In this document: piece after piece, positions 2,075 to 55,615 of the stretch | How positions within the stretch are numbered: position 1 is the stretch's first letter | Layout: each line of letters opens with the position of its first letter | Assembly: GCA_029532415.1 (NCBI GenBank) | Contig: JAQOTA010000059.1 | Coordinates: 930,001-994,000 of the forward strand | DNA length: 64,000 nt | Reading direction: 5' to 3' | Source: Marasmius tenuissimus | Lineage: Eukaryota > Basidiomycota > Agaricomycetes > Agaricales > Marasmiaceae | Program-made: the position numbers and the translations under genes | Notes under the pieces: generated by a model | Seen by the model: only the letters and a program-made list of their open reading frames with translations | Told to the model about the DNA's origin: nothing | The model's database searches: none

Positions 2075-2081
2075 GCCGGAG
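2075..2081. repeat. Left target-site duplication GCCGGAG
   Basis: GCCGGAG abuts the outer end of the left terminal inverted repeat. The same seven bases abut the outer end of the right repeat at 23764-23770. A short direct repeat at exactly these two edges is what a cut-and-paste insertion leaves. The eighth base differs (C to the left of the left copy, A to the right of the right copy). Confidence 0.75.
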
Positions 2082-2327
2082 CACCTAAGTGTCCCACCCT
2101 GTACCACAAACGAGTGGACTGAACCGGGCCGGAAACGGCTGCCAGTTTGTGGTAACCTGAGGTGGCCTCCACCATATCCCATTATCTCCTTAACATAACC
2201 TCAATATCTCATTATCTCTCCCCTCATACACACCAAGGCTCTCTCACCGCGTCTGCCCTTCGCCCTCCCGCCCTCGCCCCGACACCTCTCGTGACCTCTT
2301 TCCATTACAAGCAGCACCTCATGACTC
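2082..2327 (+). repeat. Left terminal inverted repeat of the KDZ transposon
   Basis: This stretch matches the reverse complement of 23517-23763 almost perfectly. Differences are a one-base gap near position 17, a two-base change in the GCCCTTCGC stretch and one base near the inner end. The inner half is CT-rich and leads into the transposase start at 2453, so it probably includes the transposase promoter and leader. Confidence 0.85.
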
Positions 2328-2452
2328 TGACTCAGCTCGCCATCACCACCGTCTCTTCCAACTGTCTTACCGTCTCACCTCCACTTCACCACATCGCTAG
2401 TCCCGCATATACTCAACAATTTTACATTCATTTTTAACGACATTCCTTTCCT

Positions 2453-5400
2453 ATGGCCTACAAACGCCGACGTGGACATGATGCCCTCGCAGATACGGTC
2501 AACATTATCACGATCGACGACGACGACGACGTGGTGGAGGAGGAACATTCAGGAGCTGGGGAAAATTATTGGAGTTTGGCGAAGGCTCAACTGAGTTCTA
2601 TGTGGGAGCGTACGTGGCTTTCTTTTGACATTCCGTTCGGTGACTTATGTTTCGGTCGACGACAGTCCTCAGCTACCAGAGAAAGGAACTCTTCAATTCT
2701 GCTGGTCATGGCACCTCTTTTTCTGACATTCCCATATACAACACCGATGCTCCTGACGACGACGACTGGAACGACGATGACTTTCAAATCCCAGTCGGTG
2801 AAGAAGGCGCCATGCATAGCAATGCCGGCGGGGAGTTTGATTATCACAACTTCCTCGACACCCTTTTATCTGAGGCACCGAGGTACGTCCTCAGGCTTTA
2901 TGACCCTAGGTTCAATCTAAGTTTGACATCCAGCCGCATCGACATGAGGGAACGACACCACCGAACCGAACGTCAGAATCAAAGTTGGGAGCGTCAACTA
3001 CCTCGACTAGTAGACGCATATCTCTTACACCAGTCTCACGGAGCCCCAGATCCTGGCGATGATGACTTATGCGAAGGCCAGCCATGGACTATCGCACGTA
3101 TGGATTTGTATGGTGCGTTCGCTGAGAGTCATTTACCTGTGCTCCATCATCTGATTTGATTTGACAGAATATTGCTATTTGGAGGATATTCGACATGTTC
3201 ACGGCTCGCAGACCGCTAACGAAACCCTGGCCTTCTACGGATACCTCGGCGGTAGTCCTGATGACCCCACCATTGCTTTCCCGTTCAAATTCCTCGAAAC
3301 CTTCCGTCAGATACATCGCGTTTGTCCTCGATTCAGTATCTCAGGGCTGTCCTGCACACTCACCAACACTCACGGTGTATGTTTTCTCAATTTGCCACTC
3401 TATATTCTAATATACTGAGCTTTTGAACAGCGCTTCCCCATGCCTCATCTTGAGCAGCAACTACGGGTTGCATATGACACATATCTCTCTATCAAACGCG
3501 AAGTTCAGTTATGTGTTGACAATGCCCTCGGTCGCGACTCCCACAGTCACTTTGTACGCAACGTTTGCCCTCCTTGTACGTATCAGTTGGAGAATGAAGT
3601 TGCATTAACACCAACAATTTTGATGGCAATGGACGGTAATAACTCCTTGAAGCTTGTTGACGCCAGCAAATGGTATGGGCGAGCACGGCTTGATACACGT
3701 CGTCTCCGGCATCCCCGTTGGTTGGATGCCAAGTTTGTTGATGAGTTCCAGGATGAGGTTGCGAATGCCCGGAGAAAGGGACCGGTATGTTTCCATACGG
3801 CTGACGTTCAGTGTTCAGTGTCCGGTTTTCATTCTTGGTCAACTCATTGAAGATTTCACGTAGAACCCCACGTCAAAACCAATCAACACGGGATCTGGTT
3901 CCACCGATGGCAGCCCAGAGCCGGACGACCGCCGCGATACATGGCTCACCGATGATGAGCTGGATGACTTGGCCGGCATCATCAATCCATGTGTGGAACG
4001 ATGGAAGGCCGCTGGACCGGAGGCAAACAAGAAAATGTTTTCCTTCTTTGCGATATCCAGAATATTTCTCTCTGTCTGCCGGCACGGACATGTACTGGTG
4101 ATCTGCGATATGCGAAGGAGCGGTGAGCTGTGCGTATATTCTATCTTCACCTTGACTTCACCCAATACTCAATCCTGGTTTAGCATGAAGTATCCCCTAG
4201 CCATCGTCAAGGCCCTTCTGGACCGGTATGGGAAGGACCTGGGGCTCGGATATGACATCATGTGTGCGTTCTACCGGACGTTACTCCGGAGCGAGAAACT
4301 GGGAAATCAAGTCGTCGCGTTTCGCCTCAAGGGAGTTGTTCCCGCTTTCCATGGGCACGCTCATAACCGTCGGTGCCAGGTCAGCTGGCATCCGATGTAC
4401 ACTCAGGGTGTAGGACTTGAAGATTTTGAAGAATGTGAGCGTACATTCTCAGAGTCCAACCATCTCGCATCCACTACGCGCCTTGCAAGCGAGTTCCACC
4501 GCCATCAGTCATTGATGGAACACTTCGATTTTCACGACGTGGACAAACACATTGCTTCAGGTACGCAACCGTTTTGACTCTGGTCCTCAGTTTGGTCTGA
4601 TCCTCATTGACAGGTAATTTCATATTTCAAAACTACCGCCAGGCTCTCCTCAGGATAGAAGCGGACGAGCCGTTGTTTCAAGACTTGTGCGAGCGTCAAG
4701 GGATCTCACAGGAGGACTGCGAACGCTTTCTGCAGGAGGAGATCGAGCACTTTTCGAAGGAGCACAAAGAGCCACCGGACGTTGCTATGAGGCTTGATTA
4801 TGTCGAGTTGCTCCAAAAGTTGACCAAACAGAAGTGAGTAATCATACTCAGGGTAGTACAACGGGCTAAGATATTTCCCAGAGCGGCCTCCGACGATGCG
4901 TATGGTGGTTATCAGAGTGCCCAGCGCAGCAAGCAGGTTACCGCCAAGCAGCTCCAATCACTCCACACTCGATCACGAACTACGCTCGACCGCTATCGCT
5001 CGACCCTCGAAGAGGTACTGGACTTTGAGAACGAACACGACTTCTACCGACGATGGAAGCCGACTGATCAGGAATACATCGAGACCCTCTCGGCCATGCG
5101 AGCTCGCAACTATCGCCGAGCACTCGAACGATTGGAGCGGCTTGTGGTGCAACGGTTACTCGAGCTGACAAAGCTGAACATGAGTGGCACCGGTACAGTA
5201 CCCTGGCAATGTGATCGCAAATCTCTTTGCTGACTGAAGCCAGGTTATAAGCAGCGCGAAAAGATCACACAGGCTCTACGTGCACGAGCCAAGGCTATCC
5301 AGAAGGCACTCGACAAGTACAACGAGACCGCATCAGCTATGAATCCCCCACGACCCAGGCTTGACTGGAAGGATATCTTGGAGATGGTGACCTTGGCGGA

Positions 5401-6036
5401 TTTCGATCTGCTAAAGGACACACATCTGGATCTCACCAACGTTGCATGGGCCCAGCCCCTCAACCGTGAATCTATTCGGCTATACTTCGGGCTTAAACGC
5501 GCTTGTGAGGAAATCACACAGCTGAATGTCGAGATACGCCGTTTGATATCCTTCATGATCGATAATTATGCTGACCACGTTCACGCCTTCGAGCAAGCCA
5601 TTGAGCAGGGGAACGACCAACTAGCGATGGAACTCTCCGAGCGCATGACGGTCATGAACGAGATAGACGGACATATTGCGATACGACTAGTGCAAATGAG
5701 CGAACTCAAAGGCTTCTCAGGTATGTCCAACATCCGTTATTCCGTGTTGCTATATTACTAATTCAGATCCTAGGTACCCTTGTCCCCGGCCGGAAAAAGG
5801 ATCGCGACCCTTCTATAACCGATTCTGCACGTCTCCCTGGCTGGGCTACCATGGTCCTTGGGTTGACTCGTACCTATCCGCCACAGCAACAAGGACAGTA
5901 CAGTACCAGCGCCCCAACTGTCAACTTATCGGAACTGGCGCCGGAAGGCAACATGGAAGACGCCGACACAGAGGGCCTCTTAGATTATTTTGAGGGTATC
6001 TCCATCGACAAATCTAAATCCCATACTGATGTATAA
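2453..6036 (+). CDS. KDZ-family transposase, apparently intact, 11 exons, 1009 aa
   Basis: This is the predicted transposase of the element, acting in the nucleus on its terminal repeats. Exons by eye: 2453-2609, 2666-2882, 2934-3112, 3168-3376, 3431-3784, 3864-4129, 4184-4560, 4614-4833, 4882-5192, 5244-5720, 5774-6036. All introns are GT-AG, and the total of 3030 bases stays open. Family landmarks seen in order: an acidic N-terminus with a D run; a cysteine motif VCPPCTYQLE near residue 298; MDGNNSLK near 320; CDMRRSGE near 452; GYDIMCAF near 484; then HGHAHNRRCQVSWHP and LEDFEECERTFS near 540. The last four form the conserved core of fungal KDZ transposases with acidic catalytic residues. 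The C-terminal 350 residues are helical and charged. The start ATG lies 126 bases inside the left terminal repeat. No frameshift or stop was found, so it may still be active. Confidence 0.88.
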
Positions 6037-6201
6037 TATTTCAAATCTATACCTGTTGAACCACATGCAGCGGAAGGATTCGTGCCTTTAAGTTTCGTGA
6101 CCATCGTCAGCGGGTCCTGCTGTTGACTCCTCTGTGACCGATTCAGTATGTTGTTTGCCCGACTTCTGGTTTTTGTTGTAGACTCACCTTTCCAGCTCAC
6201 T

Positions 6202-6764
6202 ATGAACGCTCAGAACCAGTGGCATGAATGCCTAAGGCTTCAAGGGAAAGCGGAAGCGCAGTGGTTGAGGCTATGCGGGTACCCAGCAGAGGATATTCCT
6301 GCCCTGGTGGAAGAGCGCCGTGTCTTTCGGCAATACATGATCAAGAGATATGGTAGAATGTGAGTTTCTAAGCTTGTAATGCAGGTTCAATGCTAACTAA
6401 GACTAGGATCGACACTAGAGTTGAATTTCGCGACAAAATGTGGTAAGTATTGCCGAGTTTGTTCATCGGATGGTCAACAGTCTACTCATTTCTACACGAT
6501 AGCCGCCGTGCACGGTCTTGCGCACAGAAGCTGTCCGAGGTCACAGTAAAGCGGAAAGATATCCCGAAACTGACCCAATTGAAGGAACACTTCGAAGAGC
6601 AACATGACGAGGCCCAGGCGAATATCATCTTCCTGTTCGGAGCCATTGATCGCCTCAAAGCCCCTACTCTCATCATCACTCGAAAGAAAAAGGTTCATGC
6701 GACACCAGAGGTGGAGGTGCTGGTGTTATTTATGGTTGATGCCGTAGCTAAGGGCCGTGTTTAG
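6202..6764 (+). CDS. Hypothetical 151-aa protein downstream of the KDZ transposase
   Basis: Three exons (6202-6359, 6407-6442, 6503-6764) join in frame to 456 bases. The protein is charged, with a Trp- and Arg-rich N-terminal half and a helical, Lys-rich middle (KRKDIPKLTQLKEHFEEQHD). I do not recognise the family. It starts 165 bases after the transposase stop on the same strand and lies inside the terminal repeats, so it could be an accessory protein of the transposon. The 36-base middle exon is short but has good splice sites and keeps the frame. Confidence 0.6.
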
Positions 6765-6887
6765 TTAGCTGGAATACACGCTTGTGTTTGTATGTCTCGC
6801 AGAAACTCATCAATACTGAGTATACAGTGATAGTACGATGGCACGGGTATGAAGAACAGAAAAAATAACTCGTTGTAACGGAACAGT

Positions 6888-7693
6888 CTACAAACCGGCT
6901 ACCTCGTACTTGTACCGAAGCCCCCCCTCGAACATCTTGAGACTTCTCATGTCATGTCGCTCTTCCAAGGTCTGGTAGTGAGAAGAAGCCGTCACCTCGT
7001 CCACTTGGTCCACCAAGTCCTCCTCCAGCAAGGCGGCATTTAAATCGTTCACACACATCAGCAGATGGAGCACAAAAATGCAGAGTGCATGAAACTTTTC
7101 TATAAGAAGGAAATCAAGCACACTGCACCGAAGTTCTTGAAGAATCTTCTTGATGGTATGGTCGAGTGACTGGAGAATAGCTGTGGGATGGTCGAGAGGT
7201 GATACAGCTGGGCGATTCGCATTCTTCCACAAGACGAGCTCTTGAAAAAGTCGTTCGAGGTATTGCAGCGGGTCATTGTTGAGCTCCCGCTGCAAAGAGG
7301 TCTTGATTGTACGCAGGTGCTGCTCGAGATATCTAACGAGAGTTTCAGTAAACAGAACAAAGTAGGGTAAGATGTATAACACACTTGGAATCTCGGTCGC
7401 AGCGTTGTAGATCTCTTTCGTCCGGGTCACCTTTATCCGCCGAAGGAGTGTTTATGTCGCGTCGGCTCTGGGCTCGACTTTTTCTAGCATGAAGACGTGT
7501 CAGCGGATTGGATGAGTGACACAGAGTGTGGTATCACTTACTCTGCCTCCATCAGCGCCTTCTTACGGTTCTTTGCCTGTCGCATTCGATGAGCATCCCA
7601 AGTCAATGGGGGGTTGCTAGAGTTAAGTAGGTGAGGAGAGAGGTGATGTGTGGAGTTATTGACTTCTTACCGCTGTTTCTGCTGGCGTTTCAT
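6888..7693 (-). CDS. Hypothetical 213-aa helical protein (KDZ cargo)
   Basis: Four exons on the minus strand (7671-7693, 7542-7616, 7385-7483, 6888-7332) give 642 bases in frame. The first part is strongly basic (MKRQQKQR, then MRQAKNRKKALMEAE). The second part is a long helical region with leucine-rich stretches, for example HALCIFVLHLLMCVNDLNAALL near the C-terminus. That stretch is hydrophobic but probably an amphipathic helix rather than a membrane anchor. No known family is recognised. The ATG at 7693 is the first in frame after an open but ATG-less stretch, so a further upstream exon is possible. The gene ends 124 bases from the convergent gene before it. Confidence 0.6.
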
Positions 7694-7783
7694 TGACAAG
7701 ACGCGGTGTACGGTGATGGTTGGAGGCAAGTTTCCGATGCGAATCGGTGCTCTTTAAGTAGTCCTATTAGGCGCTCGCGGGCG

Positions 7784-8631
7784 CTAACACATCTGGTACC
7801 AGTAAATACTATCGTAAATCGGCGATAGATCCTCCAGTTCCACCTTGGGTCCATGGCGGTCTAGCTCCTCCTGAAGTACCTCTAGGCACCCAATAAACTC
7901 TGACACGACCCCCTTGTATATCGTGAAGTCTCCCCTTTTATCGTCCCACTCGACCCCGACCTTTTCCCGAGTTGCATAGCAATACTCATCCTCGAGAGCT
8001 TCGCACTCACGAATTTTGGATTCGAACGGGCCTTTAGCATCGACGAGTGGGCTTCGACAGGTTGGCCGCTCCATGAAAGGTAGGCGACCAGCTCGTTTCC
8101 AATCAATAGCTTGCAAACAGAGCTTTTTGAGTACGGTGGTCTCCTTCGGTTCAACCAGCTGCCTATAACCCTTCCTGAGTATGTCCAATTTACCCTCCAG
8201 ATCCCTGTAAGTACATTTTCAGTTGAGTTCGGCGATAATGAGACCTAGGAACGCACCTGAGACACGAATTCAGACCGTCAGACTGAACTGGAACAGGCTC
8301 CTTCACTCCAGGAATCTCCACAGGTTTTTCCCTTGGTTGCTGCTTCTCCTGGTATTCTCGACGTTTCTTGCGAAAACGTATCCTGCAGAGAGTGTTATAG
8401 AGTAGATATAGAACCGTGGAATAATACACACTCTTCCTTTTCTGCCGCGAGATTATCATTATGGCGTTTGACTTGCTTGGACTCTAGAATGACGGTACGG
8501 TGCCTTAACCAGCGCATTAGAACCTTTTCAAGAAGAAATATATGAGCTTACTTGTTGTAAAAGTGTCGGTTCTTGATCCTGTTTGCCACTCGGCGCTCGG
8601 CTTTGGTATGATATAGTTTGGGTCGAGGCAT
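7784..8631 (-). CDS. Hypothetical 232-aa protein with basic MPRPKLYHTKAERR N-terminus (KDZ cargo)
   Basis: Four exons on the minus strand (8552-8631, 8432-8503, 8257-8382, 7784-8204) give 699 bases in frame. The N-terminus, MPRPKLYHTKAERR followed by VANRIKNRHFYNK, resembles a short basic region seen in many Agaricomycete proteins of unknown function. It is followed by a charged helical linker (LAAEKEEIRFRKKRREYQ). The C-terminal half is acidic and contains several Trp and Tyr residues. The arrangement suggests a nucleic-acid-binding basic segment plus a separate globular part, but no enzyme motif is visible. The choice of the exon 2 acceptor at 8503 rests on keeping the frame. Confidence 0.6.
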
Positions 8632-9161: not shown

Positions 9162-10064
9162 TCACTCACTAGGAGTGTATGCCAGCCCCAAAGTCTCCAA
9201 ATCCTCCAGGTCGTCGACAACCTCGGCGTACTCTTTCAAATCCACCTCAAGCCTCTCGTTACTCTTGATGAGCACTGAGCGCTCATTATCCAGGGCACGC
9301 AAGGCAGCACGAAGAGGCTCCTGTTTGACCCGAACTTCGTCCATCAGTGAGAGGTTCAGTGCGATGTCCTGCTGAGCGGCAGATACGTTCGCTTTAACAA
9401 CGGACTTTCGGTCTCGAACTTCAGCGAGAGTGAAGTCGGGGCCCGGAATCCTGGCATGTTGGGCTTCGGGGAGACACCGAATAACTAGGTAATAATGAGC
9501 AACCTGATCAAATGACAAGACAGAGAAAAACTCACGTTGGGTCCGTGCCCATTTCTTACTGTCTGCTCCCGTCAAAGGGGTTACTCTGGGCTCTCCGAGA
9601 GGCGCGATGATCCTGAAGAGATCACGACGCACATAGAAGATGACATGGTGGTGGGAGGGTCGTCCAGATTCTCCAGAAGTCCGCCAACGAAATACAGAGG
9701 GCTCGGATGAGGTGCCCCAGCCGGATCGGCCTGGATTGAGTGAGACGATCTTGGGGCTCTGGAGGTTGTCACGATCGACCCAGACACGCTCGGTCTCCTC
9801 AAAGTCCTTTCCACAGCCAGTTGCCCTGCCCCAAGTATTTGAGATACGGTGCTGCGTCAATACAGCACTATGCTGGGCGTCCAGATTGTCGTCGTCATGC
9901 TCCGAGAGCACAGGTAGATGGGTCTGAGGGTTATCAACATCCAAGGGGTGAGGCGTGGCTTCGTCATTCAGAAGGCTGACCATGACTGCTTGTGAATCTG
10001 GTGACATTGAAGCAACAATTGATGGGGAGGAGGTAGCAGTAGGGTTAGACATGGCTGTCATTCG
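9162..10064 (-). CDS. Hypothetical coiled-coil protein (KDZ cargo)
   Basis: A minus-strand gene encoding about 280-300 residues. The frame is open from 10106 to the stop at 9162. I chose the ATG at 10064 (MTAMSNPT), because the upstream residues are a low-complexity histidine run. A 51-base GT-AG intron (9485-9535) is likely. Being a multiple of three, it does not close the frame if retained. The N-terminus is Ser/Pro-rich and acidic. The middle has aromatic segments (HHHVIFYVRRDLFRIIAP). The last 90 residues form a predicted coiled coil (RAALRALDNERSVLIKSNER, then LEVDLKEYAEVVDDLEDLE). No family is recognised. Confidence 0.6.
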   Translation of the reverse strand, partial: RMTAMSNPTATSSPSIVASMSPDSQAVMVSLLNDEATPHPLDVDNPQTHLPVLSEHDDDNLDAQHSAVLTQHRISNTWGRATGCGKDFEETERVWVDRDNLQSPKIVSLNPGRSGWGTSSEPSVFRWRTSGESGRPSHHHVIFYVRRDLFRIIAPLGEPRVTPLTGADSKKWARTQREFFSVLSFDQVAHYYLVIRCLPEAQHARIPGPDFTLAEVRDRKSVVKANVSAAQQDIALNLSLMDEVRVKQEPLRAALRALDNERSVLIKSNERLEVDLKEYAEVVDDLEDLETLGLAYTPSE

Positions 10065-10542: not shown

Positions 10543-11473
10543 TTAGATCGACAGGCTATTTACAAGATCATCCAAACCATGATCAGCCAGCTGCGTGTCC
10601 AGTGGTGCGGTATTCTGGTATTCGTCCAGAATCTCGATGGATCTAGACATGTAACATTTGTAGTACACGAGCCAAGCTTGGTAAAATCGGCGCTGGCTTT
10701 CGTGCTGGGCACCACTGATACCAGTAACAAGGCTAGATGCCTTATTCCTGTAATGGAGGGTGAGCGAGAAGGAATGCGAGAAGCAGTAGAGACGGCACAC
10801 CAGTCAGTGAAAATCCCGACCTCAACGCCAGCGGTAACAACGTAAAACATACGAGTCGTTGTAGCTGGAGCCCTGAGGGTTTGGGGGTCCAGAACTTTGC
10901 CTGGGTATCTAACCTCATAGAACCTCGCAAGGGACTCCTCCGTGTCTCCAGACTCAGCAGTTGGCGGCGAAGATGTAGGAGAGGAGGCTTGGGATGGAGG
11001 AGGGCTAGGCTGAGATCGAGTGGTTGATCGAGGGGTGCCATAGGTGTTGGAGACTGTGGCGGAGGATGAGGCAGTTTCTGGCTCCAAATCGGTAGCGAAC
11101 AAAATCGTCGCATCCTCATTTGGGTTGTCGGAGTCGTCGTGACGGGTGGATTGACGGGAAGAGGTGGGTTTATAGGAAGAAGACGCACGACTCAAACGAG
11201 ACGGACTTTCCGTGACCACCGTTGTACGGGTGGTGGTACGTGTTATGACTATAGATAGAAGGTAAGAAATGTGTATGGAGACAGTGAAACAACATCGAAT
11301 TTTTACCTTTTCCGGGGCTTTGTTCTGTGACCGTCCGCGTATGTGTCCTCATCCGTGTTCGGCTCTTAGGGGAAGAACCTATCCAGTGGACACAGGGTTC
11401 AGTAAACTGAAAGACGGATAGATAAAAAATATAGCAAAATATTACCGCTGTGAGATGAGCTGGCACTGGTCAT
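10543..11473 (-). CDS. Protein with C-terminal RNase H1 N-terminal-type (hybrid-binding) domain, 250 aa
   Basis: Four minus-strand exons (11446-11473, 11307-11378, 10801-11248, 10543-10747) give 753 bases in frame. The first 120 residues are disordered and rich in Ser, Thr, Arg and Pro. The C-terminal part carries the pattern of the RNase H1 N-terminal / caulimovirus viroplasmin fold: RFYEVRYPGK, then MFYVVTAGVEVGIFTDW, then VTGISGAQ and RRFYQAWLVYYKCY. This is the YYVV...GIFxxW...V.G..A...F...A...Y signature, which binds RNA:DNA hybrids or dsRNA in RNase H1. No catalytic RNase H domain follows. The intron after TDW splits the domain, and the joint is in frame. Domain call from family knowledge; role in the transposon is inference. 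Confidence 0.7.
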
Positions 11474-14079: not shown

Positions 14080-14792
14080 TGTTAGGATCGTGCGGATATG
14101 ACAGCCCGGACGGAAGTCCGAGCGGAAGGGACTGAAGCCGACGTGCCGGAATGGACTAGTCGGAGTTGAAGAGATTCCGACGACCGGAAGGCCGAACGGA
14201 TGGCTGGACAATAGTCGAAGGTTTCGCCAACGACACCGTTGAGTTGAGTTGTCCTTGACCGGAAGGAAAGGAAGATAAAGATGAAGAGGAGATAGAGATA
14301 AAGAGATGGAATGAGACGAAAGAGATAAACGGAAACCAAGTTGATTTTAATTCTAAGGAATACAAGTCGTGAAGTATCTAGCTTATATATATATCGATCT
14401 CCGAGACCTCCGAAGGGGTTCCGGCGATCGTAATACCGAGGATGAGTCAAGAGCGGGAGAGAATGTATGTACAGTACGGAATCCGAGACGGAGGGTGAAG
14501 TCCCGGAGTCGGAGATGAATCGGAAATGAAGTGTCAGAATGGAATGTACGGGATGAGTCATGATAGAATGGAGAGCGGAATGTCGGAATGTAAAGTATAC
14601 GTATTACTCGGAAATGAACGGTGTATATGTATCTCCGATCCGTAAGTACCGGGGACACGACGTCGGAATCCGAAGTCATGTTCCGGAAAGGATCGTGAAG
14701 GAAGAGACAACATAAGGTAGATTCCGAGTATCGGAATCTCCGGAAGGTGGATAGAAGCCTTCGGAAACCCCGGAACCGGCATGGATGTAACA
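14080..14792 (-). repeat. 3' LTR of the Ty3/Gypsy element (713 bases)
   Basis: This copy is identical line by line to 22190-22902. In the element's orientation it runs TGTTACATCC to CCTAACA. It has a TATATATATATAA stretch (14383-14394) and a sequence complementary to the PBS just downstream of it (14344-14354). Open frames inside it are chance reading frames. Confidence 0.97.
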
Positions 14793-14795
14793 GTA

Positions 14796-14805
14796 TCCCC
14801 CTCTT
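14796..14805 (-). other. Polypurine tract
   Basis: On the element's sense strand this reads AAGAGGGGGA, ending three bases from the 3' LTR edge. This is the expected plus-strand primer position. Confidence 0.8.
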
Positions 14806-14979
14806 AAGGCTCTCGCCTCGAGAGCCGCGGAGGAAGTAAGAAGAAAATCGTAAGACGTAAAAGTTCGGAAGCATTCGGAAAGAAGACATAAAACAATAGA
14901 AACGTGATGAGTCAATAGAACGTTCTGGAACATGAAAGAATATTCTGGAAATCCAAACAAAGAACAAATAGAAAAAAGA

Positions 14980-14986
14980 TATATAA
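14980..14986 (+). promoter_or_regulatory. TATA box of the antisense gene
   Basis: TATATAA lies 48 bases upstream of the ATG at 15034 and is oriented with the antisense gene. It is in the internal region rather than in the LTR, so the gene appears to have its own promoter. Confidence 0.6.
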
Positions 14987-15033
14987 GAAGCGCACCAAGC
15001 GAATCCCAACTTCATTTCCCCGACTCATCAATT

Positions 15034-16278
15034 ATGTCTCCCACCCCCTCTCGTTCACCAACTCCCTCCGATCTCCTGTTCACCACTCCGCGACCGGATG
15101 AGACACTTCCGGAGTATATTACGAAAAAACCCAAGGTGCTCGAATATCTCGGCCGGTACTCGGAAGACGAGGAAGAGAAAGCAACGGCGGAGTTCAAGTC
15201 CGACGTAGAGGCTTGGACGAGGAATCGGAACGAATGGAATGCGGAGCAGCAGGAGGGAATAGATGGACGGATTGCGGATTGGGAAAAAGAGAAAGCAGAT
15301 ACCGAACGAAGACTGGCGGAATGGCGAGCGGAGCGGGATGGTCGAACGGAAGCGAGGCGGAAGCAGAGGGAGACGGAAGAGGAGGAAATTCGAAGAGAGA
15401 CGATGGTTCCGGAAGAGGTGAAGTCTGAGCCTTTCGAATATTACTTCTCCGACGCCGACAAGCAGTCTATTGATATGGACTGGGATTCGGTGTGTCCGAC
15501 CGGATCGGATTTCTTTATTCTGAATTTTTTAACTCTTCCTTAGTTCTACTTATCGCTGACGCAACCTCAACAAATGATTTTTCAGTCCGGATTCGCTGCA
15601 GGGAAGAAGAGCGCGGAGAAGACGTCAACCGGAGGCGGAGGTGCGAGGAAGAAAGGAAAGGCGAAGGATTCCGGAAGAGAGATTACGGATCCGGAGGAGG
15701 TCGGACTAGGACCCCTTCTTCCGACATGTGAGTTCCATTCCTTTTGAATGGTAAATTTGCCTAAGTCCATGACAGCTTGCAACCGATGTTCTGCGCAGGA
15801 CGCGGAATGTCGGATCAACCTCAACGCCGCTACGAATTTTCGCGGAAAGAACAACGCCTGCTTCCGGTGTCGGAAGAGAAAGGTGAAATGCGTGTTCCCC
15901 GACGGAAGCGGTGACGGAAGCCGATCGGAGGCCGGGTCGATGAAGTCGAAGAGTTCGGAGGGGAAACGGAAGGCTGCGGTCGGGAAGCCGGTCCACTTGG
16001 CGCCAACAGTGGAAAAGGACTTGCGCCAAATCAATCGCGGGATCCAACTCCTGTTGGGTGTCTGGGGAGTGGACTTCCCGGATAGCTCGGATGAAGGCGA
16101 AGCGGACGCGGAAGCGGATGAGGAAGAGGAAGAGGATCGGGAGGAGGGACCATCGTCGAGGCCGAGCAAGAGGCCCGCATCGCAATCTCCGAAAAACCTT
16201 CGGAAGAAGATGAGGAGCACGGAAACGATCCCGGAGGAGGAAGAAGAAGAAGCGGACAAGGATAGGATGGAAGAGTGA
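15034..16278 (+). CDS. Antisense accessory gene of the retrotransposon with Zn-cluster-like cysteines, 366 aa
   Basis: Three exons (15034-15489, 15586-15727, 15776-16278) give 1101 bases in frame. Introns are 96 and 48 bases, GT-AG, in the orientation opposite to gag and pol. Residues 1-150 are charged and helical (WEKEKADTERRLAEWRAERD). After intron 2 comes a six-cysteine motif: CNRC, SAQDAE, C, a 16-residue spacer, then ACFRCRKRKVKCVF. That is C-x2-C-x6-C-x16-C-x2-C-x6-C with a basic RKRKVK, recalling fungal Zn2Cys6 DNA-binding domains. The rest is acidic (runs of E) with a PSSRPSKRPASQ stretch. A DNA- or nucleic-acid-binding regulator is plausible. It is not part of the standard Gag-Pol set. 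It ends 149 bases from the end of pol. Confidence 0.8.
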
Positions 16279-16426
16279 AGAACGGAACGTCCGGAACGCG
16301 GACAATTTCTTGTTTTTTTGTATAATTGTAGATTATTCTTGAAACGTCGCCCGGCCGGAAGGCCTTTCTCGGAATCATGAGTGATCGTAAGATAATCGGA
16401 AGCGGAATCGGAACGATTAAATGAAC

Positions 16427-19400
16427 TTAGATAGAATCGATAGGTCCAGGCTTGTGAGGATAGCGTTCGTGGAATGCTCGGAGGAGGTCCGGAGCGTTGA
16501 AGTTGTCTGCCGTGACCCAAGAGAACTCCTCGTCGGTGCCTTCGTAACCGAGCCATCGGATGCGATATTGTAACTTGCACTTGAAGCGACGGTCGATCTT
16601 GGAGTCTAGGATCTCGGAAATCTCGTAATGATCTTCTTCTCCGGTGTCGAGTTCGACGGGACCCGGAGGAGGCTGGACACGATTCGGAATGGGGTTCGGA
16701 AGGATGGATTCGAGTTGGGAAACGTGGAAAGTTGGATGGATGGTACGGAATTCAGTCGGAAGTCGGAGGGTATAAGCAACTGGAGATGGTGTAGCAATGA
16801 TCTCGAAAGGACCTAGGAATTTCTCGGAGAATTTAGCGGTAGGTCTGGTCGTTTTGATGTACTTAGCGGAGACCATAACTTTATCGCCAATCTTCCATTC
16901 CGGCTGAGGCTGGAGATGTCGATCCTTCTGTTCCTTCATACGGGTTTGGGCGTGAGTAAGTTCTTCTCGGAGCATGGAATGAAGCTCATCTAGATCAACC
17001 ACAAACTCTCGTGCACGGGCGGAAGCCATGTCTCGTTCCGGGTGGATGGTGATGTTCGGATGATAACCCTTGTTGGCAAAGAATGGTGAGATTCCGGTGG
17101 AAGCGTTCGGAGCATTGTTGTAAGCGAACTCGGCAAGAGGCAGGAGTTCATCCCAGTTGTCCTGCTGGTAAGAACAGTAGACTCGGATATACTGCTCAAG
17201 CGTCTGATTCGCCCGTTCAGTCTGTCCGTCGGCGGAAGGGTGATAACCGGAAGTGTAATGAAGATTCATGTCAAGGGCTTTCCCGAGGGAACGCATGAAG
17301 TGGGAAACGAATTCGGAACCACGGTCGGAGGTGACGTGCTGAGGAACTCCATGCTTAGAGAACACATGGATAACGAAGAGTCGAGCGAGTTGTTCGGAAG
17401 TGATATGGATGTCTGTAGGAATGAAGATTGCTTGTTTCGAAGCGCGGTCGATGATAACTAGGATGGAATTGAAACCGTTAGAGTTCGGAAGTTCCTCGAT
17501 GAAGTCCATAGAGATAGAGTCCCATGGTCGTGCGGGAACCGGAAGGGGTCGTAGAAGTCCGTATGGCCGATGTCGTGGAGTCTTGTTCCGTGCACAGATT
17601 ACACAGGAGCGAACGTAGTCTCGCACGAACTCTCGGATGAGAGGCCATGTATATTGACGTCGGATGGTTTCTAGGGTCCGGTTCTGTCCGAAGTGACCAG
17701 AGATGATATGATCATGATATTGTTGGAGGATTCTAAGTCGGAGGTTGTTGGCTTCAGGAACGTAGATTCTGTCATCTAAACGGAGGAAACCTGTCTCGTC
17801 GACAGTCCATCTAGTCTCGTCGGAAGTGTCGGATGCGGATCGGAAGTGTTGGATGAGGGAGGAATCTTCTGTCTGAGCAGTTCGGATGTCTTCATGGAGC
17901 TGCTCGACGTCCATGATAACGCTTGCGCGAAGAACTGGACCTTCAAGGAATGTAGCGCGGAGGGAAGCGGTGAGTTGTTCCTGAGTGAATACAGGTCGGA
18001 AGTTGTGTGGATTAAGATGGGCGTAAGGCGTATCCCCCTCTTTAGGATAGACGTCCCATCGTCTAGTCAAAGCGTCCGGTTTTGCACCGAGCTTGCCAGG
18101 ACGGAAACGAATTACCATGTTAAAGTGAGAGAGGTACTCGGACCAGCGTACTTGTCGTCGGGTGAGAATCTTCGTAGTGGTGAAATATTCAAGATTTTTG
18201 TGATCCGTTACCACGTCGACCGGATTCTCGGAACCTTCCAAGTAGTGCCGCCAACGTTTGAACGCCTCGAAGATGGCGAGGAGCTCTTTGTCGTGCACAT
18301 CGTAGTTAAGTTCCGGAGGAGTGAAAGTCCGGGAGTGGAATGCGATAGGATGGATCTCACCGTCGTCGGTCCGGATAGAGAGGATAGCCGCCAACGCATA
18401 GTCGGATGCGTCGGTTTCCACAATGATTTCTCGATCAGGAATCCAGTGCGTGAGGATAGGAGCATGAGTGAATGCCTCTTTCAGAGTATCGAAGGCAGCC
18501 TGGCATTCCGGGCTGAAGTTCCAACGAATGTCTTTCCGAGTGAGGCGGGTTAAAGGAACGGTAATGGCGCTATAGTTGAAGATAAAACGCCGATAGAAGT
18601 TGCAAAAGCCGAGGAAAGATTGAATATCCTTAACTTTGCGCGGCGTAGGCCATTTAGTAATGATATCCATTTTGGACATATCCATTCGAAGACCTTCCGG
18701 CGAAAGAATGTAGCCGAGGTATTCGATAGTATCGGTATGGAATTCGCACTTGGAGGCTTTGCAGTACAATCCGTTTGCCCGGAGGCGTTTGAGAACCTCC
18801 CGGACATGCTTCTTGTGAGAGGAAATATCGTCGGAATAGATGAGGATGTCGTCTAGGTAAACTAAAACGTTAACATCAAGCATATCGGAGAAAATGTTGT
18901 TGACGAAGCGTTGGAAGACTGCAGGTGCGTTGGATAGTCCTTCCGGCATAACCCGCCACTCGAATGAGCCGTAACGGGTCCGGAAAGCGGTCTTGTATTC
19001 ATCACCATCGGCGATACGCACAAGGTGATAAGCGTGACGGAGGTCAAGCTTGGTATAAATCCGAGCCTTCCGCGGAGCGTCGAGAAGGTCGGAGATGAGA
19101 GGGAGCGGATAGCGATCCTTTTTGGTAATCTTGTTAAGACCCCGGAAGTCGACGCAGAGTCTAAGATCACCACTCTTCTTCTTGACGAAGAGAACGGGAG
19201 CGCCAAAAGGAGATTTGGATGGAGTGATGAGCCCGGCCTGAAGATGTTCATCGATGAATTCTCGGAGAGCTGTGATCTCCGTTTGAGAAAGGGAATAGAT
19301 CGGACCGAGAGGTGGTTCCGTTCCTTCCTCTAACTGAATCTTCATGTCGTCTTCTCCCCGATGCGACGGAAGCTGTTTCGACATTTCTGGGCTGAAGACG

Positions 19401-20089
19401 TCAGTGAATTCATGATAATCAGGCGGAATGATTGCCAAGTCTTCTTCAGAAAGTTCCGCCGCACGTCCGGAAGCCGTGTCGGAAGGCGTCATCTGGATGG
19501 TGAACGCCCGAGCACCGGATTCGGACTTCGCTCGGAGGTAAGCGCCAGCAGATATGAGGGAAACCTTCGGAGCTATAGCAGACGGAGCTGAGAGAAGATC
19601 AGCGTAGGAATAGATGGGCTCGAATGGATAAGATGGAGACTTAGCCTTGCGCCGAGGCGTACTAGGCTGAGGAGAGACTTCCGAGAGCTCGGAAGAGCGA
19701 GTCGGAAGGGCCGGCTGAGACGGAATTGGCTTTGTCCGGAATTCGATACTGTTGTTCGACCAGTCAACCAACGGGTTGTAGCGGTGAAGCCAGTTATATC
19801 CTAAAACTAGGCTGCAAGCCGAATCAAGGTGAGTGACGTAAAAGTCAATCGGAAGGATGTCTCCAGAAGAAAAAGTGATAGGTAAAGAGGCCATGCGCGA
19901 AATAGTGGAACCATGAGAACCATTGAGAAGGCGAAGAGAAATAGGTGGTATTGGAATAGTAGGTACTTGGTTACGTTCCACGTACTTTGTATCTATAAAG
20001 CAGTGGGACGAACCGGAATCAACGAGAGCAGAAAAAGATAATGGTACAGTAGTAGATGACTGTTCGTGTATATCGGAAGAAATAGACAT
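16427..20089 (-). CDS. pol: Pol polyprotein: PR-RT-RH-IN-chromodomain, 1220 aa from its first ATG
   Basis: The retrotransposon replication enzymes. Aspartic protease: DSGSS at residues 24-28, LGYNWL at 96. Reverse transcriptase: KKSGDLRLCVDFRGLNK near 305, catalytic D349, YLDD at 411-414. RNase H: D560, E602, D629. Integrase: zinc-binding H794/H799 and C829/C832, with catalytic D862, D922 and E958. Chromodomain: about 1153-1215 with KCKLQYRIRWLGY and EEFSWVTADN, which in chromoviruses targets insertion to marked chromatin. All key residues are present and there is no stop. The frame is open upstream of the ATG back to the gag stop in the -1 frame, so synthesis by frameshift from Gag is likelier than initiation at 20089. 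Confidence 0.97.
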   Translation of the reverse strand: MSISSDIHEQSSTTVPLSFSALVDSGSSHCFIDTKYVERNQVPTIPIPPISLRLLNGSHGSTISRMASLPITFSSGDILPIDFYVTHLDSACSLVLGYNWLHRYNPLVDWSNNSIEFRTKPIPSQPALPTRSSELSEVSPQPSTPRRKAKSPSYPFEPIYSYADLLSAPSAIAPKVSLISAGAYLRAKSESGARAFTIQMTPSDTASGRAAELSEEDLAIIPPDYHEFTDVFSPEMSKQLPSHRGEDDMKIQLEEGTEPPLGPIYSLSQTEITALREFIDEHLQAGLITPSKSPFGAPVLFVKKKSGDLRLCVDFRGLNKITKKDRYPLPLISDLLDAPRKARIYTKLDLRHAYHLVRIADGDEYKTAFRTRYGSFEWRVMPEGLSNAPAVFQRFVNNIFSDMLDVNVLVYLDDILIYSDDISSHKKHVREVLKRLRANGLYCKASKCEFHTDTIEYLGYILSPEGLRMDMSKMDIITKWPTPRKVKDIQSFLGFCNFYRRFIFNYSAITVPLTRLTRKDIRWNFSPECQAAFDTLKEAFTHAPILTHWIPDREIIVETDASDYALAAILSIRTDDGEIHPIAFHSRTFTPPELNYDVHDKELLAIFEAFKRWRHYLEGSENPVDVVTDHKNLEYFTTTKILTRRQVRWSEYLSHFNMVIRFRPGKLGAKPDALTRRWDVYPKEGDTPYAHLNPHNFRPVFTQEQLTASLRATFLEGPVLRASVIMDVEQLHEDIRTAQTEDSSLIQHFRSASDTSDETRWTVDETGFLRLDDRIYVPEANNLRLRILQQYHDHIISGHFGQNRTLETIRRQYTWPLIREFVRDYVRSCVICARNKTPRHRPYGLLRPLPVPARPWDSISMDFIEELPNSNGFNSILVIIDRASKQAIFIPTDIHITSEQLARLFVIHVFSKHGVPQHVTSDRGSEFVSHFMRSLGKALDMNLHYTSGYHPSADGQTERANQTLEQYIRVYCSYQQDNWDELLPLAEFAYNNAPNASTGISPFFANKGYHPNITIHPERDMASARAREFVVDLDELHSMLREELTHAQTRMKEQKDRHLQPQPEWKIGDKVMVSAKYIKTTRPTAKFSEKFLGPFEIIATPSPVAYTLRLPTEFRTIHPTFHVSQLESILPNPIPNRVQPPPGPVELDTGEEDHYEISEILDSKIDRRFKCKLQYRIRWLGYEGTDEEFSWVTADNFNAPDLLRAFHERYPHKPGPIDSI

Positions 20090-20151
20090 ATTTGAAGAAA
20101 GAGTAAGAGTAAGAGAATTAGGCGAAGAAAGAGCGGCTGCGTTGAGAGTTA

Positions 20152-20223
20152 CCTCGGTGGAACGATCCGGCTCAACGCAACTCCGAACTCGTTCCGAGGG
20201 TTCGGAGTTGCGGACTATTTTTT
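20152..20223 (-). promoter_or_regulatory. Predicted -1 ribosomal frameshift signal between gag and pol
   Basis: Gag ends GCG AAA AAA TAG, giving a run of six A (20218-20223) directly before the stop. A five-base spacer follows. Then come a perfect 13-base-pair stem (CGCAACTCCGAAC, 20200-20212, with 20176-20188) and an 11-base loop. Loop bases CCTCGG (20194-20199) can pair with CCGAGG at 20152-20157, making an H-type pseudoknot. Shifting back one base at the A run enters the pol frame, which is open through to the Pol ATG. Confidence 0.8.
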
Positions 20224-22152
20224 CGCCTCATCCGGTTTGGATGTGGAGGCGTCCGAAGTAGCCGCAGCACGACCTTTAGCCTGAGAACCGGCCGCAGGTC
20301 GCTTCCTACAATCATCTGTCTTGTGCTTTCCGCCACAGAACATGCACAAGTTGTTCTTCTTCCGACGTTCCTTCTCTTCCGGCTTCAACTTTCCGTCCTT
20401 ACCAAGATACTGGGCAACCGGGTTAGTAGTGTTGGAAGTTGGATTCGACCCAGTGTTGTTGTTGGCGTTGGACTTGTTGCCGGAAGAGTTGCTGGAAGAG
20501 TTACCGGAACTCTTGTTGGAGCCACCGGAACTACCGGAACCTCCGGAAGAGTTGTTGGAACGATTTCCGGAGTTGTTGTTGGATCGGGAGTTGGAATTCG
20601 AATTGTTGTTGTTGGCTCGTTTCGCTGCTCGGCCCTCTCGGGATTTCTCCCCTTCGCGTACCCAGTGCGTCCGATCGTATTCCCGGCACACTACACGCAA
20701 CTGTTTGAGAGTCGAAGGACGAGCACCAACGTTCGGAAGTAAATCTTTGATACGCTTTGGCATAGCGCGATAATAGGCATGACGGAGAGCGTTCTCGCCG
20801 TAACCAATCTTGGCTGCGAGAGTGTTGAAACGAACCTCGAACTTTCCGATTTTCTCCCCTTCTCCCATCCGGAGGTTGTCGAACTTGTCTTCGGCTTCCT
20901 CTATCGTATCCACCTGTCCGAAGAACATTTCGAGTTCATCGAGGAATGCTCGGAGGCTGAACATCCAAGCGGGCGGATCGGAATCGGTTTCATAGGATAG
21001 GATTTCGGGTTGGAAATATTCGAGGCACATGCCACGGAGGTAGGAAATGATGTAGTGGATTTTATCGGCATCGGTAGGAAAATCGGAGGGACGGTGATTG
21101 AAAACGATCATACATGAGACGATGAAGCTCGGAAGTTTGTCGGGTTGCGTTCCGTCGAAGGTATCAGGTTCCTTGACGTTCCCCTTCTTTTCCGGCTTCT
21201 TCCCAAGGAGCTGGGCGATGATTTTGTTGTGCTCAAGCATGGATTGTACGAGTGCCATCATATTGAATTGGTAGAGATCGTTTCCGGGACCTCTAGGGAA
21301 TCCAGGTCCCCCGCCTCGTCCACCGGAGGGTCCTCCGCCAGGAGGTCCACCGCCAGGTGGTCCGGGGGGTCCGGGGGGTCCGGGTGGTCCGGAATCACCG
21401 GGTTCGTGATCGGATCCGTCGTCACCTTCCGGCTCCGTATCCGTGTCTCCACCCCTATTGCTACCTGCTCGGGATCCGCCCCTACTGCCACCTCGAGAGC
21501 CCTTGGGTTCATCGACCTGTTTATGTGGGTCGGATCCCTCGGGTAACGCTGTCTCTGTTGGTAGTTCAGTATCCCGGGGCATAACCGGAGCTGTAACTGG
21601 ATGAGTGGATGGATGTTCTTTGTCAACGGCGGCATCGAAAGTAAAGTCATCAATTAACCCCTCATCGGCCTTGCTTTTCCCCTTAGCTGTTTTCGGAGGT
21701 GGTTCGTTATGAGCCTTGTCAAGTGCTAGTGCTAGTTTTGCAGGATCAAGCACCCCCCGAGGATCTTCAATAGTAGCTGGAGAGAAAACTTGGCGGGATG
21801 CGGGTTTCGGAGGTGGAGGAGGACGACTAGGAGTTTCGGGTACCTTATCCCCTACATAGACGGTTCTGCCATCCTCAAGTGTCCTGTATTTCGAAGCCAT
21901 TGTTGTAGGACGTCGGAGCTTGCTAGGCGGAAGTGGTGCGACGGTATTAAGTGTGCCGATACGTGGAGTTGATTGTACGTCGATTTGATATTCGGAAGCA
22001 CGGACGCTGCTGCCGAAAACCGCTTGTCGTTCTTTACGTCGACCGTAACGGTTGGTTGAGATAGATTCGGAAGCGGAGATACTTCCTACGAATTGGTTGG
22101 GTGGATCTTCGTCGAAGTGTCCAGGGAATTCAGGATTGACTTGTCTGGACAT
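20215..22152 (-). CDS. gag: Gag polyprotein, 645 aa
   Basis: The structural protein forming virus-like particles. The N-terminal third is disordered, with a GPPGPPGPPGPPGG collagen-like stretch. The capsid region (about residues 300-480) contains PDTFDGTQPDKLPSFI and YFQPEIL, typical of fungal Ty3 capsids. A Ser/Asn-rich linker precedes the zinc knuckle CMFCGGKHKTDDC, a C-x2-C-x3-H-x4-C variant one residue shorter than the usual CCHC. Starts at ATG 22152, 38 bases inside the 5' LTR edge, and ends in the A-rich frameshift site. Confidence 0.95.
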   Translation of the reverse strand: MSRQVNPEFPGHFDEDPPNQFVGSISASESISTNRYGRRKERQAVFGSSVRASEYQIDVQSTPRIGTLNTVAPLPPSKLRRPTTMASKYRTLEDGRTVYVGDKVPETPSRPPPPPKPASRQVFSPATIEDPRGVLDPAKLALALDKAHNEPPPKTAKGKSKADEGLIDDFTFDAAVDKEHPSTHPVTAPVMPRDTELPTETALPEGSDPHKQVDEPKGSRGGSRGGSRAGSNRGGDTDTEPEGDDGSDHEPGDSGPPGPPGPPGPPGGGPPGGGPSGGRGGGPGFPRGPGNDLYQFNMMALVQSMLEHNKIIAQLLGKKPEKKGNVKEPDTFDGTQPDKLPSFIVSCMIVFNHRPSDFPTDADKIHYIISYLRGMCLEYFQPEILSYETDSDPPAWMFSLRAFLDELEMFFGQVDTIEEAEDKFDNLRMGEGEKIGKFEVRFNTLAAKIGYGENALRHAYYRAMPKRIKDLLPNVGARPSTLKQLRVVCREYDRTHWVREGEKSREGRAAKRANNNNSNSNSRSNNNSGNRSNNSSGGSGSSGGSNKSSGNSSSNSSGNKSNANNNTGSNPTSNTTNPVAQYLGKDGKLKPEEKERRKKNNLCMFCGGKHKTDDCRKRPAAGSQAKGRAAATSDASTSKPDEAKK

Positions 22153-22176
22153 TCAGTAATTTCAACTCAAGGTTCG

Positions 22177-22187
22177 AGAATTAAAAT
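22177..22187 (-). other. Primer-binding site, self-priming type
   Basis: Two bases inside the 5' LTR the element's sense strand reads ATTTTAATTCT. It is not a TGG-starting tRNA complement. It is exactly complementary to AGAATTAAAAT in the LTR (22454-22464), placed where the RNA should start. In Tf1 an 11-base match of this kind lets the transcript prime itself. Confidence 0.7.
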
Positions 22188-22189
22188 AC

Positions 22190-22902
22190 TGTTAGGATCG
22201 TGCGGATATGACAGCCCGGACGGAAGTCCGAGCGGAAGGGACTGAAGCCGACGTGCCGGAATGGACTAGTCGGAGTTGAAGAGATTCCGACGACCGGAAG
22301 GCCGAACGGATGGCTGGACAATAGTCGAAGGTTTCGCCAACGACACCGTTGAGTTGAGTTGTCCTTGACCGGAAGGAAAGGAAGATAAAGATGAAGAGGA
22401 GATAGAGATAAAGAGATGGAATGAGACGAAAGAGATAAACGGAAACCAAGTTGATTTTAATTCTAAGGAATACAAGTCGTGAAGTATCTAGCTTATATAT
22501 ATATCGATCTCCGAGACCTCCGAAGGGGTTCCGGCGATCGTAATACCGAGGATGAGTCAAGAGCGGGAGAGAATGTATGTACAGTACGGAATCCGAGACG
22601 GAGGGTGAAGTCCCGGAGTCGGAGATGAATCGGAAATGAAGTGTCAGAATGGAATGTACGGGATGAGTCATGATAGAATGGAGAGCGGAATGTCGGAATG
22701 TAAAGTATACGTATTACTCGGAAATGAACGGTGTATATGTATCTCCGATCCGTAAGTACCGGGGACACGACGTCGGAATCCGAAGTCATGTTCCGGAAAG
22801 GATCGTGAAGGAAGAGACAACATAAGGTAGATTCCGAGTATCGGAATCTCCGGAAGGTGGATAGAAGCCTTCGGAAACCCCGGAACCGGCATGGATGTAA
22901 CA
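22190..22902 (-). repeat. 5' LTR of the Ty3/Gypsy element (713 bases)
   Basis: Identical to 14080-14792. It contains the promoter that drives gag-pol on the minus strand. Confidence 0.97.
22493..22504 (-). promoter_or_regulatory. LTR TATA element
   Basis: ATATATATATAA on the sense strand, about 30-40 bases before the AGAATTAAAAT sequence (22464 downward). This spacing fits transcription start at or near the self-primer sequence. Confidence 0.65.
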
Positions 22903-22907
22903 CCGCA
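22903..22907. repeat. Target-site duplication CCGCA, right copy
   Basis: Exact match to 14075-14079 at the opposite edge of the element. Confidence 0.95.
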
Positions 22908-23102
22908 GCACAACAGAACATTCAAAAACGGAAGCATAGAGAGATTTCTCAAGACCCGGGTTCCAGGAACTCTCTGACTCCGGGTCCCGAGGATCCAGAA
23001 CATTCTCGACCCAAACGGAACTGCGCACCGCCCAAAAGACCTCACTTGGGAGCAAGTACACACCCAGCCTCGCACGCAGAGCGCTCTGACGGGGAGGACT
23101 AA
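22908..23102 (+). pseudogene. 3' part of the cargo gene interrupted by the Ty3/Gypsy insertion
   Basis: After the duplicated CCGCA the reading frame of the gene starting at 12000 resumes with no shift. It runs 64 codons to TAA at 23100-23102. The segment is Pro/Arg/Lys-rich (HSRPKRNCAPPKRPHLG) and matches the composition of the tail before the insertion. It has no start codon of its own and would not be made from the disrupted allele. Confidence 0.75.
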
Positions 23103-23516
23103 CCCGACTTTTTTGTATCCGTATAGTATTCCGAACAACGTTTGTATGATATTCTATAGAATCAATTCATTATATGCTGAACAACGATTGATACAACATG
23201 CGAAGGACTAGTAGCTATATGAACTTGAATACCTATACACCTGAGCACTCGGGATATTTGCGGATGAGCTCGGTGAGGTGGCGACGAGGTGAGTAAAAAA
23301 CATGGTAGGAAGTCATTGTGGTAAAAAGTAAGCTAGAAACTGGGGAGCGACGTGGTGGAGGGAGTGAGAGCCTCAGGTTTATTTTAGAGAGCAAGTAATA
23401 CATCTAGAGGAATGTTGCGGTGGAGGGAACGTTGGAGAATAAATTTTGTAAGTACAGGCAATAGCATGGGCGGGTGGACGTTGGTTGGCGAGAGATGTCG
23501 GTAAATGTTTTGAACT
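23103..23516. other. Spacer between the split cargo gene and the right terminal repeat
   Basis: About 410 bases, presumably the 3' untranslated region of the cargo gene and internal transposon sequence. No gene is seen. Confidence 0.5.
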
Positions 23517-23763
23517 GAGTCATGAGGTGCTGCTTGAAATGGAAAGAGGTCACGAGAGGTGTCGGGGCGAGGGCGGGAGGGCGGGGGGCAGACGCGGTGA
23601 GAGAGCCTTGGTGTGTATGAGGGGAGAGATAATGAGATATTGAGGTTATGTTAAGGAGATAATGGGATATGGTGGAGGCCACCTCAGGTTACCACAAACT
23701 GGCAGCCGTTTCCGGCCCGGTTCAGTCCACTCGTTTGTGGTACAGTGGTGGGACACTTAGGTG
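23517..23763 (-). repeat. Right terminal inverted repeat of the KDZ transposon
   Basis: Reverse complement of 2082-2327 with about 98% identity. It ends GGTGGGACACTTAGGTG at 23763 and is followed directly by the GCCGGAG direct repeat. Confidence 0.85.
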
Positions 23764-23770
23764 GCCGGAG
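23764..23770. repeat. Right target-site duplication GCCGGAG
   Basis: Matches 2075-2081 and lies directly outside the right terminal repeat. Confidence 0.75.
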
Positions 23771-55396: not shown

Positions 55397-55615
55397 CTTA
55401 ATGCCGGATGGTGAGCACTGAAAACTTGATGATCATGGAGCCCGCTGGTGTTCGAATGCAAGCCGTCATTACATATGGCGGCGGAAGGGAGATGGACCGC
55501 ACAAATCACAATTCACCGAGTAGACCAAGAGGAGGCCAAGGTTCCCGCTCAGGAGTTGAAAGGAGCTGAACCATCAATCCTAATTGCCTTCTTCCCCCCC
55601 CCACCCCGTTCTAGA

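Follow-up and report, generated by a model that had tools for sequence, protein, structure and literature searches.

In the usual description, a eukaryotic cut-and-paste transposon encodes a transposase and perhaps a single helper. A locus of the basidiomycete Marasmius tenuissimus raises the question of what a much more gene-rich element of this kind carries, and whether the genes beside its transposase are passengers or belong to it. The window, i.e. the whole stretch of 64,000 nucleotides analysed here, corresponds to positions 930001-994000 of contig 2 in a genome assembly of 71 Mb (GCA_029532415.1; locus prefix PM082). Within it, positions 2082-23763 constitute a single complete transposon of 21,682 bp, interrupted by an 8.8-kb Ty3-type retroelement. 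We interpret it, with good confidence, as a KDZ-superfamily DNA transposon of the cut-and-paste type whose ends resemble those of Kyakuja and which moves as one seven-gene unit; the six companion genes look like a conserved module common to its relatives, not picked-up cargo. Its features, in window coordinates, are as follows:

2075-2081: target-site duplication GCCGGAG, left copy, an exact 7-bp direct repeat
2082-2327, plus strand: left terminal inverted repeat (TIR), beginning CACCTAAGTGTCCCACC, about 246 bp
2103-2153: left subterminal palindrome, arms of about 21 bp around a 9-bp middle (converted by hand from alignment columns 23-73)
2453-6036, plus strand: KDZ transposase, 11 exons, 1007 amino acids, frame intact
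6202-6764, plus strand: G1b, 151 amino acids, frame intact
6888-7693, minus strand: G2, 213 amino acids, frame intact (the C9 copy is NCBI PM082_006939)
7784-8631, minus strand: G3, 232 amino acids, frame intact
9162-10052, minus strand: G4, 279 amino acids, frame intact
10543-11352, minus strand: G5, 232 amino acids, frame intact, with a PF01693 domain
12000-23102, plus strand: G6, 665 amino acids in the C9 copy (NCBI PM082_006935), broken in the window
14080-22902, minus strand: Ty3-type long terminal repeat (LTR) retroelement of 8,823 bp with reverse transcriptase, RNase H, integrase and chromodomain
23517-23763, minus strand: right TIR, the inverted partner of 2082-2327
23691-23741: right subterminal palindrome (converted by hand from alignment columns)
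23764-23770: target-site duplication GCCGGAG, right copy, an exact 7-bp direct repeat

The two TIRs of the window copy differ by three mismatches and one 1-base indel, and the unit without the retroelement measures 12,854 bp, as against 12,855 bp for its closest copy on contig C9. A preliminary description of the window had proposed full boundaries with inverted repeats and an exact GCCGGAG duplication, an intact KDZ transposase inside one end, six further genes, a nested retroelement, and a unit of about 12.9 kb swollen to 21.7 kb; each of these was borne out. Six of the seven genes in the window are free of inner stops, while G6 has suffered a 1-base deletion and the entry of the retroelement into its last exon. 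The G6 and G2 models of the C9 copy match PM082_006935 and PM082_006939, respectively, over their whole length, and the remaining models (KDZ, G1b, G3, G4 and G5) come from a gene finder combined with comparison of relatives. In a further copy on contig C10 the KDZ, G2 and G3 frames are broken.

That these ends delimit a mobile unit is seen from its copies. The left TIR of the window recovered nine matches in the genome: six at 98-100%, which pair into three elements (the window, C9:158979-171833 and C10:5857274-5870122), two at 68-69%, which pair into a fourth element on C34, and one at 71% on C25, whose second end was located later. Identity to the window is 99.68% for the C9 copy (12,003 bases) and 98.1% for the C10:5.86 Mb copy (12,004 bases). 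Further elements were located with the element proteins as queries, giving 12 complete elements in the genome, comprising the window, two sisters and nine more distant relatives:

A: the window, 21,682 bp
B: C9, 12,855 bp
C: C10:5.86 Mb, 12,849 bp
D: C34, 12,926 bp
E: C25, 21,020 bp, stretched by an insertion
F: C3, 12,798 bp
G: C10:4.68 Mb, 12,793 bp
H: C7:5.52 Mb, 18,420 bp
J: C23, 13,544 bp
K: C7:4.82 Mb, 12,984 bp
L: C63, 18,132 bp
M: C36:526429-540746, 14,318 bp

Two additional loci were kept out of this set, namely element I (C10:4.37 Mb), with one end only, and element N (C42, a contig of 52 kb), with one end and repeats in inverted arrangement. All 12 complete elements run from CACCT to AGGTG, and each lies between two exact copies of a 7-bp repeat whose letters vary between sites; their TIRs range from 246 to 433 bp. 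Thus the preliminary description's expectation of other copies with the same ends, and its claim that the seven genes move as one unit, are upheld by boundaries, duplications and copies, and not one of the nine TIR matches is part of a pair that encloses unrelated sequence. Element H in turn houses a 5.6-kb insertion (C7:5530508-5536122), a further nested DNA transposon, whose inverted ends are 33 bp long and which is flanked by the 8-bp repeat GGAGAGCT.

Uninterrupted target sites point in the same direction. For element G, an exact element-free site is present on C53, with 600 bp identical across the junction and a single GTAAATG; for D and H, uninterrupted repeats of their targets are present in the genome. 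The target of element B has one uninterrupted match at 74%, and that of element C none (with a query of 211 of 300 bases). The empty site with a single GCCGGAG envisaged in the preliminary description was recovered in part: four paralogs of the window site run continuously across the junction in the same genome, but they are diverged (81-84%) and carry a single GCTGGAG. The screen covered nine target sites (2,702 of 3,300 bases, L and M being left out) and the best 40 of 535 candidates.

The window copy moved fairly recently, as judged from its 99.7% identity with the C9 copy. The high identity of its TIRs, which the preliminary description had taken as the sign of a recent move, does not serve this purpose: the differences between left and right TIR predate the split of the window and C9 copies, because the C9 left end is 100% identical to that of the window and the right 861 bases differ by a single mismatch. 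The nested retroelement is itself recent, since its LTRs (14080-14792 and 22190-22902) are identical over 713 bp and it is missing from both sister copies; it is flanked by a 5-bp duplication, CCGCA. In the 12.0 kb to the left of it the window has 31 private substitutions, of which 30 are C>T or G>A, all 30 at CpG, where CpG accounts for 24% of the cytosines. The C10 copy has 185 private differences of unpolarised direction, 144 of which read as C>T/G>A, with 132 of those at CpG. This pattern fits deamination of methylated CpG and suggests that the elements are methylated.

As to the central question, the companion genes are tied to KDZ loci throughout the genome. Counted by gene and locus, 102 of 109 cases have the accessory gene no more than 15 kb from a KDZ domain, a zone that makes up 3.9% of the genome. 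The cases were hand-picked as one row per locus and gene, using the best exon row, and the reference comprises 94 KDZ places hand-picked from listed rows of 165 matches, plus one from another search. The cases beyond 15 kb are the G6 of C25 (16.9 kb), within the insertion-stretched element E; G6 and G5 at C7:4.97 Mb (18-20 kb), where the locus at 4.95-4.97 Mb is rearranged; a lone G6 on C21 (37 kb); and G4, G5 and G6 together at C3:2851235-2858100, more than 450 kb from the nearest listed KDZ match, a cluster that is presumably a remnant or a set left behind. Gene order and orientation agree among the elements of the window, C9, C10, C34, C25, C3, C7 and C63 type and that on C23, and the inner block of C36 is inverted relative to the others. 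In six or seven more distant families (C12, C17, C27, two on C33, C9:139-149 kb and C10:6.19-6.20 Mb) KDZ and a G6 homolog were observed 7-9 kb apart and divergently oriented.

Across the conserved set, protein identity from element to element is about 50-70%. Between diverged elements the ratio of nonsynonymous to synonymous differences (pN/pS) is 0.19-0.65 for all seven genes, with synonymous sites so near saturation that the exact values carry no weight; for the close pair B-C, with few changes, it reaches 1.27. Among the best 8000 database candidates, the G6 homologs are all from Marasmius (23 proteins) apart from a weak match in Ceratobasidium (E 2.5e-6), and the seven database matches of G2 (146 candidates) are all from Marasmius. 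In Marasmius sp. AFHP31 all three G2 matches lie on contigs of the same sizes as those of the G6 matches, with locus tags 2-4 apart, and the same gene set appears to be present in this second species.

Comparison of protein distances further resolves the module into parts. Across seven elements, the KDZ distances correlate strongly with those of G6 (r 0.947, 24 of 5040 permutations), and the agreement persists when C36 is removed (r 0.829, 26 of 720). For G2-G5 the agreement with KDZ over all seven elements fails (r -0.04 to 0.27), and it was therefore that the mosaic nature of C36 was recognised. On its removal, G2 (0.886, 4 of 720) and G4 (0.840, 11 of 720) fall into line with KDZ, agreement being weaker for G3 (0.701, 54 of 720) and weakest for G5 (0.209, 96 of 720). 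The KDZ and G6 proteins of C36 are farther from those of B, D and F than are those of J, K and L (0 of 300 bootstraps to the contrary), whereas its G1b, G2, G3 and G4 are closer to B, D and F than are those of J, K and L (300 of 300 bootstraps each; 240 of 300 for G5). The block with discordant distances is the very one that is physically inverted, and among the KDZ places C36 is only slightly nearer to some than to others. By these distances C36 is an apparent mosaic, in which KDZ and G6 of a deep lineage enclose an inner cassette that is inverted and belongs to the window's clade, and we read it as the replacement of the inner cassette within an older backbone.

At the level of domains, the KDZ model of the C9 copy is recovered unequivocally by PF18758 (E 2e-73, 247 bits, cut-off 26.6), with a CxC1 match that stays under its cut-off of 26.9 (E 0.078, 13.6 bits). 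G5 contains the N-terminal hybrid-binding domain of RNase H1 (PF01693; E 8.7e-8, 32.7 bits against a cut-off of 21; 26.5 in a relative). G1b-G4 have no Pfam match above the cut-off; the G4 of one relative gave coiled-coil-type matches, all sub-threshold, and in one relative G3 is weakly similar to G2 (27%, E 8.5e-5). As a side observation, the protein P0028 seems to be annotated as a fused G3-G2.

G6 is the most telling of the companions. Of the 17 members of its family, 11 match GTF2I (PF02946) at E<=1, with a best value of 0.0063; the C9-copy protein (P0001) scores 15.5 bits, under the cut-off of 27, with a PDB profile match at E 0.017. The predicted model has a mean pLDDT (the predictor's per-residue confidence) of 57, with 10-residue blocks of 76-90 over residues 41-90 and 111-170 and of 71-90 over 261-370. 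In fold searches with this model, the top eight Foldseek and top nine VIA matches were all GTF2I domains, with Foldseek E-values of at least 0.015 throughout. The GTF2I (TFII-I) repeat domains have 16-26% identity to G6 and superpose at a root-mean-square deviation of 3.3-6.5, G6 for its part being a fungal transposon protein. Based on these predictions, G6 carries a domain that would resemble the GTF2I repeats in fold. Such repeats are not known outside the vertebrates, and their origin is unexplained. The available part of a paper on GTF2IRD2 (PMC10641963) does not say that they are vertebrate-specific. Three of the 17 family members also match the HMG box (PF00505) at E<=1, with a best value of 2.6e-6; P0008 alone exceeds the cut-off (28.2 bits against 25.4), and P0001 has no such match. 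HMG structures do not figure in the fold-search lists, which is uninformative either way. HMG proteins act as cofactors of RAG and Sleeping Beauty. Taken together, G6 is probably a DNA-binding protein.

The ends themselves contain a palindrome with arms of about 21 bp, about 22 bp inside the end, in which 78.6% of cells are paired across eight family representatives, against 30-42% when it is slid. Cells with changes on both sides number 14, as compared to 5.7 +/- 2.0 in shuffles, none of the 500 reaching 14, and two other measures were equalled by 26 and 66 of 500 shuffles; these statistics pertain to left ends or one end per family. This conservation of pairing makes the palindrome a candidate symmetric binding site for the transposase. 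In element K it is nearly perfect, with 23-bp arms, and it is degenerate in the other members.

Elsewhere in the window, two Pro/Ser-rich open frames of 775 amino acids each (29832-32159 and 35315-37642, both on the minus strand) are 42% identical over 447 aligned positions and have no Pfam match. Positions 54933-56784 and 60969-64000 contain direct repeats of 91-96% identity, spaced by about 6.0 and 7.2 kb, which reach the window edge.

How, then, might such an element function? On the reading we favour, the KDZ protein would bind the subterminal palindrome and cut at the CACCT ends, and G6, with its GTF2I-like fold and the HMG-box matches of some members, would help to bring together or bend the ends of so long an element. 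The inner block of G1b-G5 would be an accessory module, perhaps aimed at chromatin or RNA:DNA hybrids, and replaceable as a cassette; the window copy would have acquired its CpG transitions, the G6 deletion and the retroelement after its move. An alternative, which we rate as a genuine contender though somewhat less probable than its negation, is that KDZ alone moves the element and that the other genes are kept by selection for a role apart from transposition, such as counter-silencing. The exchange of the inner block independently of KDZ and G6, the hybrid-binding domain of G5 and the hint of methylation from the CpG-type decay all speak for it, whereas the tracking of KDZ distances by G6 and the absence by Pfam of any known silencing-related domain in G1b-G4 speak against it. 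It stands close to the favoured reading and may hold for the inner block. A bolder extension of the favoured reading, which we advance tentatively and consider rather unlikely in its full form, is that this KDZ lineage encodes a multi-protein transposition machine, consisting of the transposase, a co-evolving G6 in which an HMG-box-like region is joined to a GTF2I repeat-like domain, and an exchangeable five-gene cassette, one of whose proteins has an RNA:DNA-hybrid-binding domain. In that case the TFII-I repeat may have a common ancestor with a protein of DNA transposons, and the exchange of cassettes between backbones would be one route of transposon evolution.

The preliminary description's own view of the six genes as cargo, that is, host genes captured as passengers, is improbable and was rejected as the main reading. 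Most of their functions are unassigned, and the inner block was exchanged as a unit in C36, as captured genes might allow; against this stand the tight placement of the genes near KDZ domains, the retention of the set across diverged elements, and genome searches that recovered no separate host family, the exceptions being the KDZ-less three-gene cluster, the two places in the rearranged locus, the stretched element and the lone G6. We give far less credence still to the idea that several unrelated transposons, alike in their transposase and in the genes that they took up, are represented among the 12 elements. The 165 KDZ-domain matches of many kinds and the one mosaic element lend themselves to it, but it is countered by the common ends, duplication length, homologous subterminal palindrome and gene order, and by the agreement of G2, G4 and G6 with KDZ once C36 is set aside, that of G3 and G5 being weak. 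Finally, chance or an assembly artefact as the source of the inverted repeats was dropped as next to negligible, given three near-identical copies at distinct sites, each with a different 7-bp duplication, and the presence of uninterrupted targets.

The wider implication of the favoured reading is that several proteins acting together, rather than a lone transposase, may serve a large DNA transposon. Six companion genes are retained under purifying selection and for the most part in constant order, and one of them co-evolves with the transposase; what large KDZ elements need beyond the transposase thereby becomes testable, and the twelve complete elements with exact ends, along with the one exact empty site, provide a test panel. 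The GTF2I-like domain offers a clue to how a vertebrate transcription-factor repeat arose.

The founding paper on KDZ elements is said to be the 2014 study of Iyer et al.; that study and the supplements lay outside the literature searched, in whose accessible parts no description was found of a conserved companion set of six genes, of its partial co-evolution with the transposase, of an exchange of cassettes or of the GTF2I-like domain. In the same parts of the sources, the size, long TIRs and activity of KDZ elements (PMC12810828) and the 7-bp duplications with CA..TG ends of Kyakuja (PMC12730594) are already known, and KDZ is reported to make up a large part of the DNA elements of Marasmius oreades (PMC8290104). 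The Starships (PMC12134995) are likewise multi-gene fungal transposons, but are mobilised in Pezizomycotina by a tyrosine recombinase, in contrast to the KDZ transposase, TIRs and fixed small gene set seen here; no tyrosine recombinase was found by Pfam among the seven genes of the window unit, no search having been aimed at such enzymes. The hAT7 elements share the 7-bp duplications but use a hAT transposase, whereas Zisupton and Dileera share the KDZ transposase but are reported to make 8-bp duplications (PMC12730594), as opposed to 7 bp in all 12 elements here. Closer in build are KDZ1, KDZ2 and KDZ3 of Cryptococcus neoformans, large elements of about 9-11 kb with long TIRs of 139-241 bp that have been shown to move (PMC12810828). 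They differ in their 8-bp duplications (4-8 bp for KDZ2/3) and in having CxC1 in the transposase, a CxC cysteine cluster being reported with the transposase for several KDZ elements (PMC12810828), as against the sub-threshold CxC1 match of the window family. Closest by their ends are Kyakuja-1_LB and Kyakuja-2_LB of Laccaria (PMC12730594), which differ from the window family in being devoid of TIRs and in carrying a TET/JBP gene. TET/JBP was rejected as a companion gene here, as it was not found in the 12 elements; the one match in the genome (C3:4475557-4475760) is below the cut-off, and a KDZ domain (C3:4459519) is situated about 15 kb away from it. What the Laccaria families share with all 12 elements are a KDZ transposase, 7-bp target duplications and 5'-CA..TG-3' termini, and it is on these duplications and termini, rather than on a grouping of the transposases, that we base the label Kyakuja-like.

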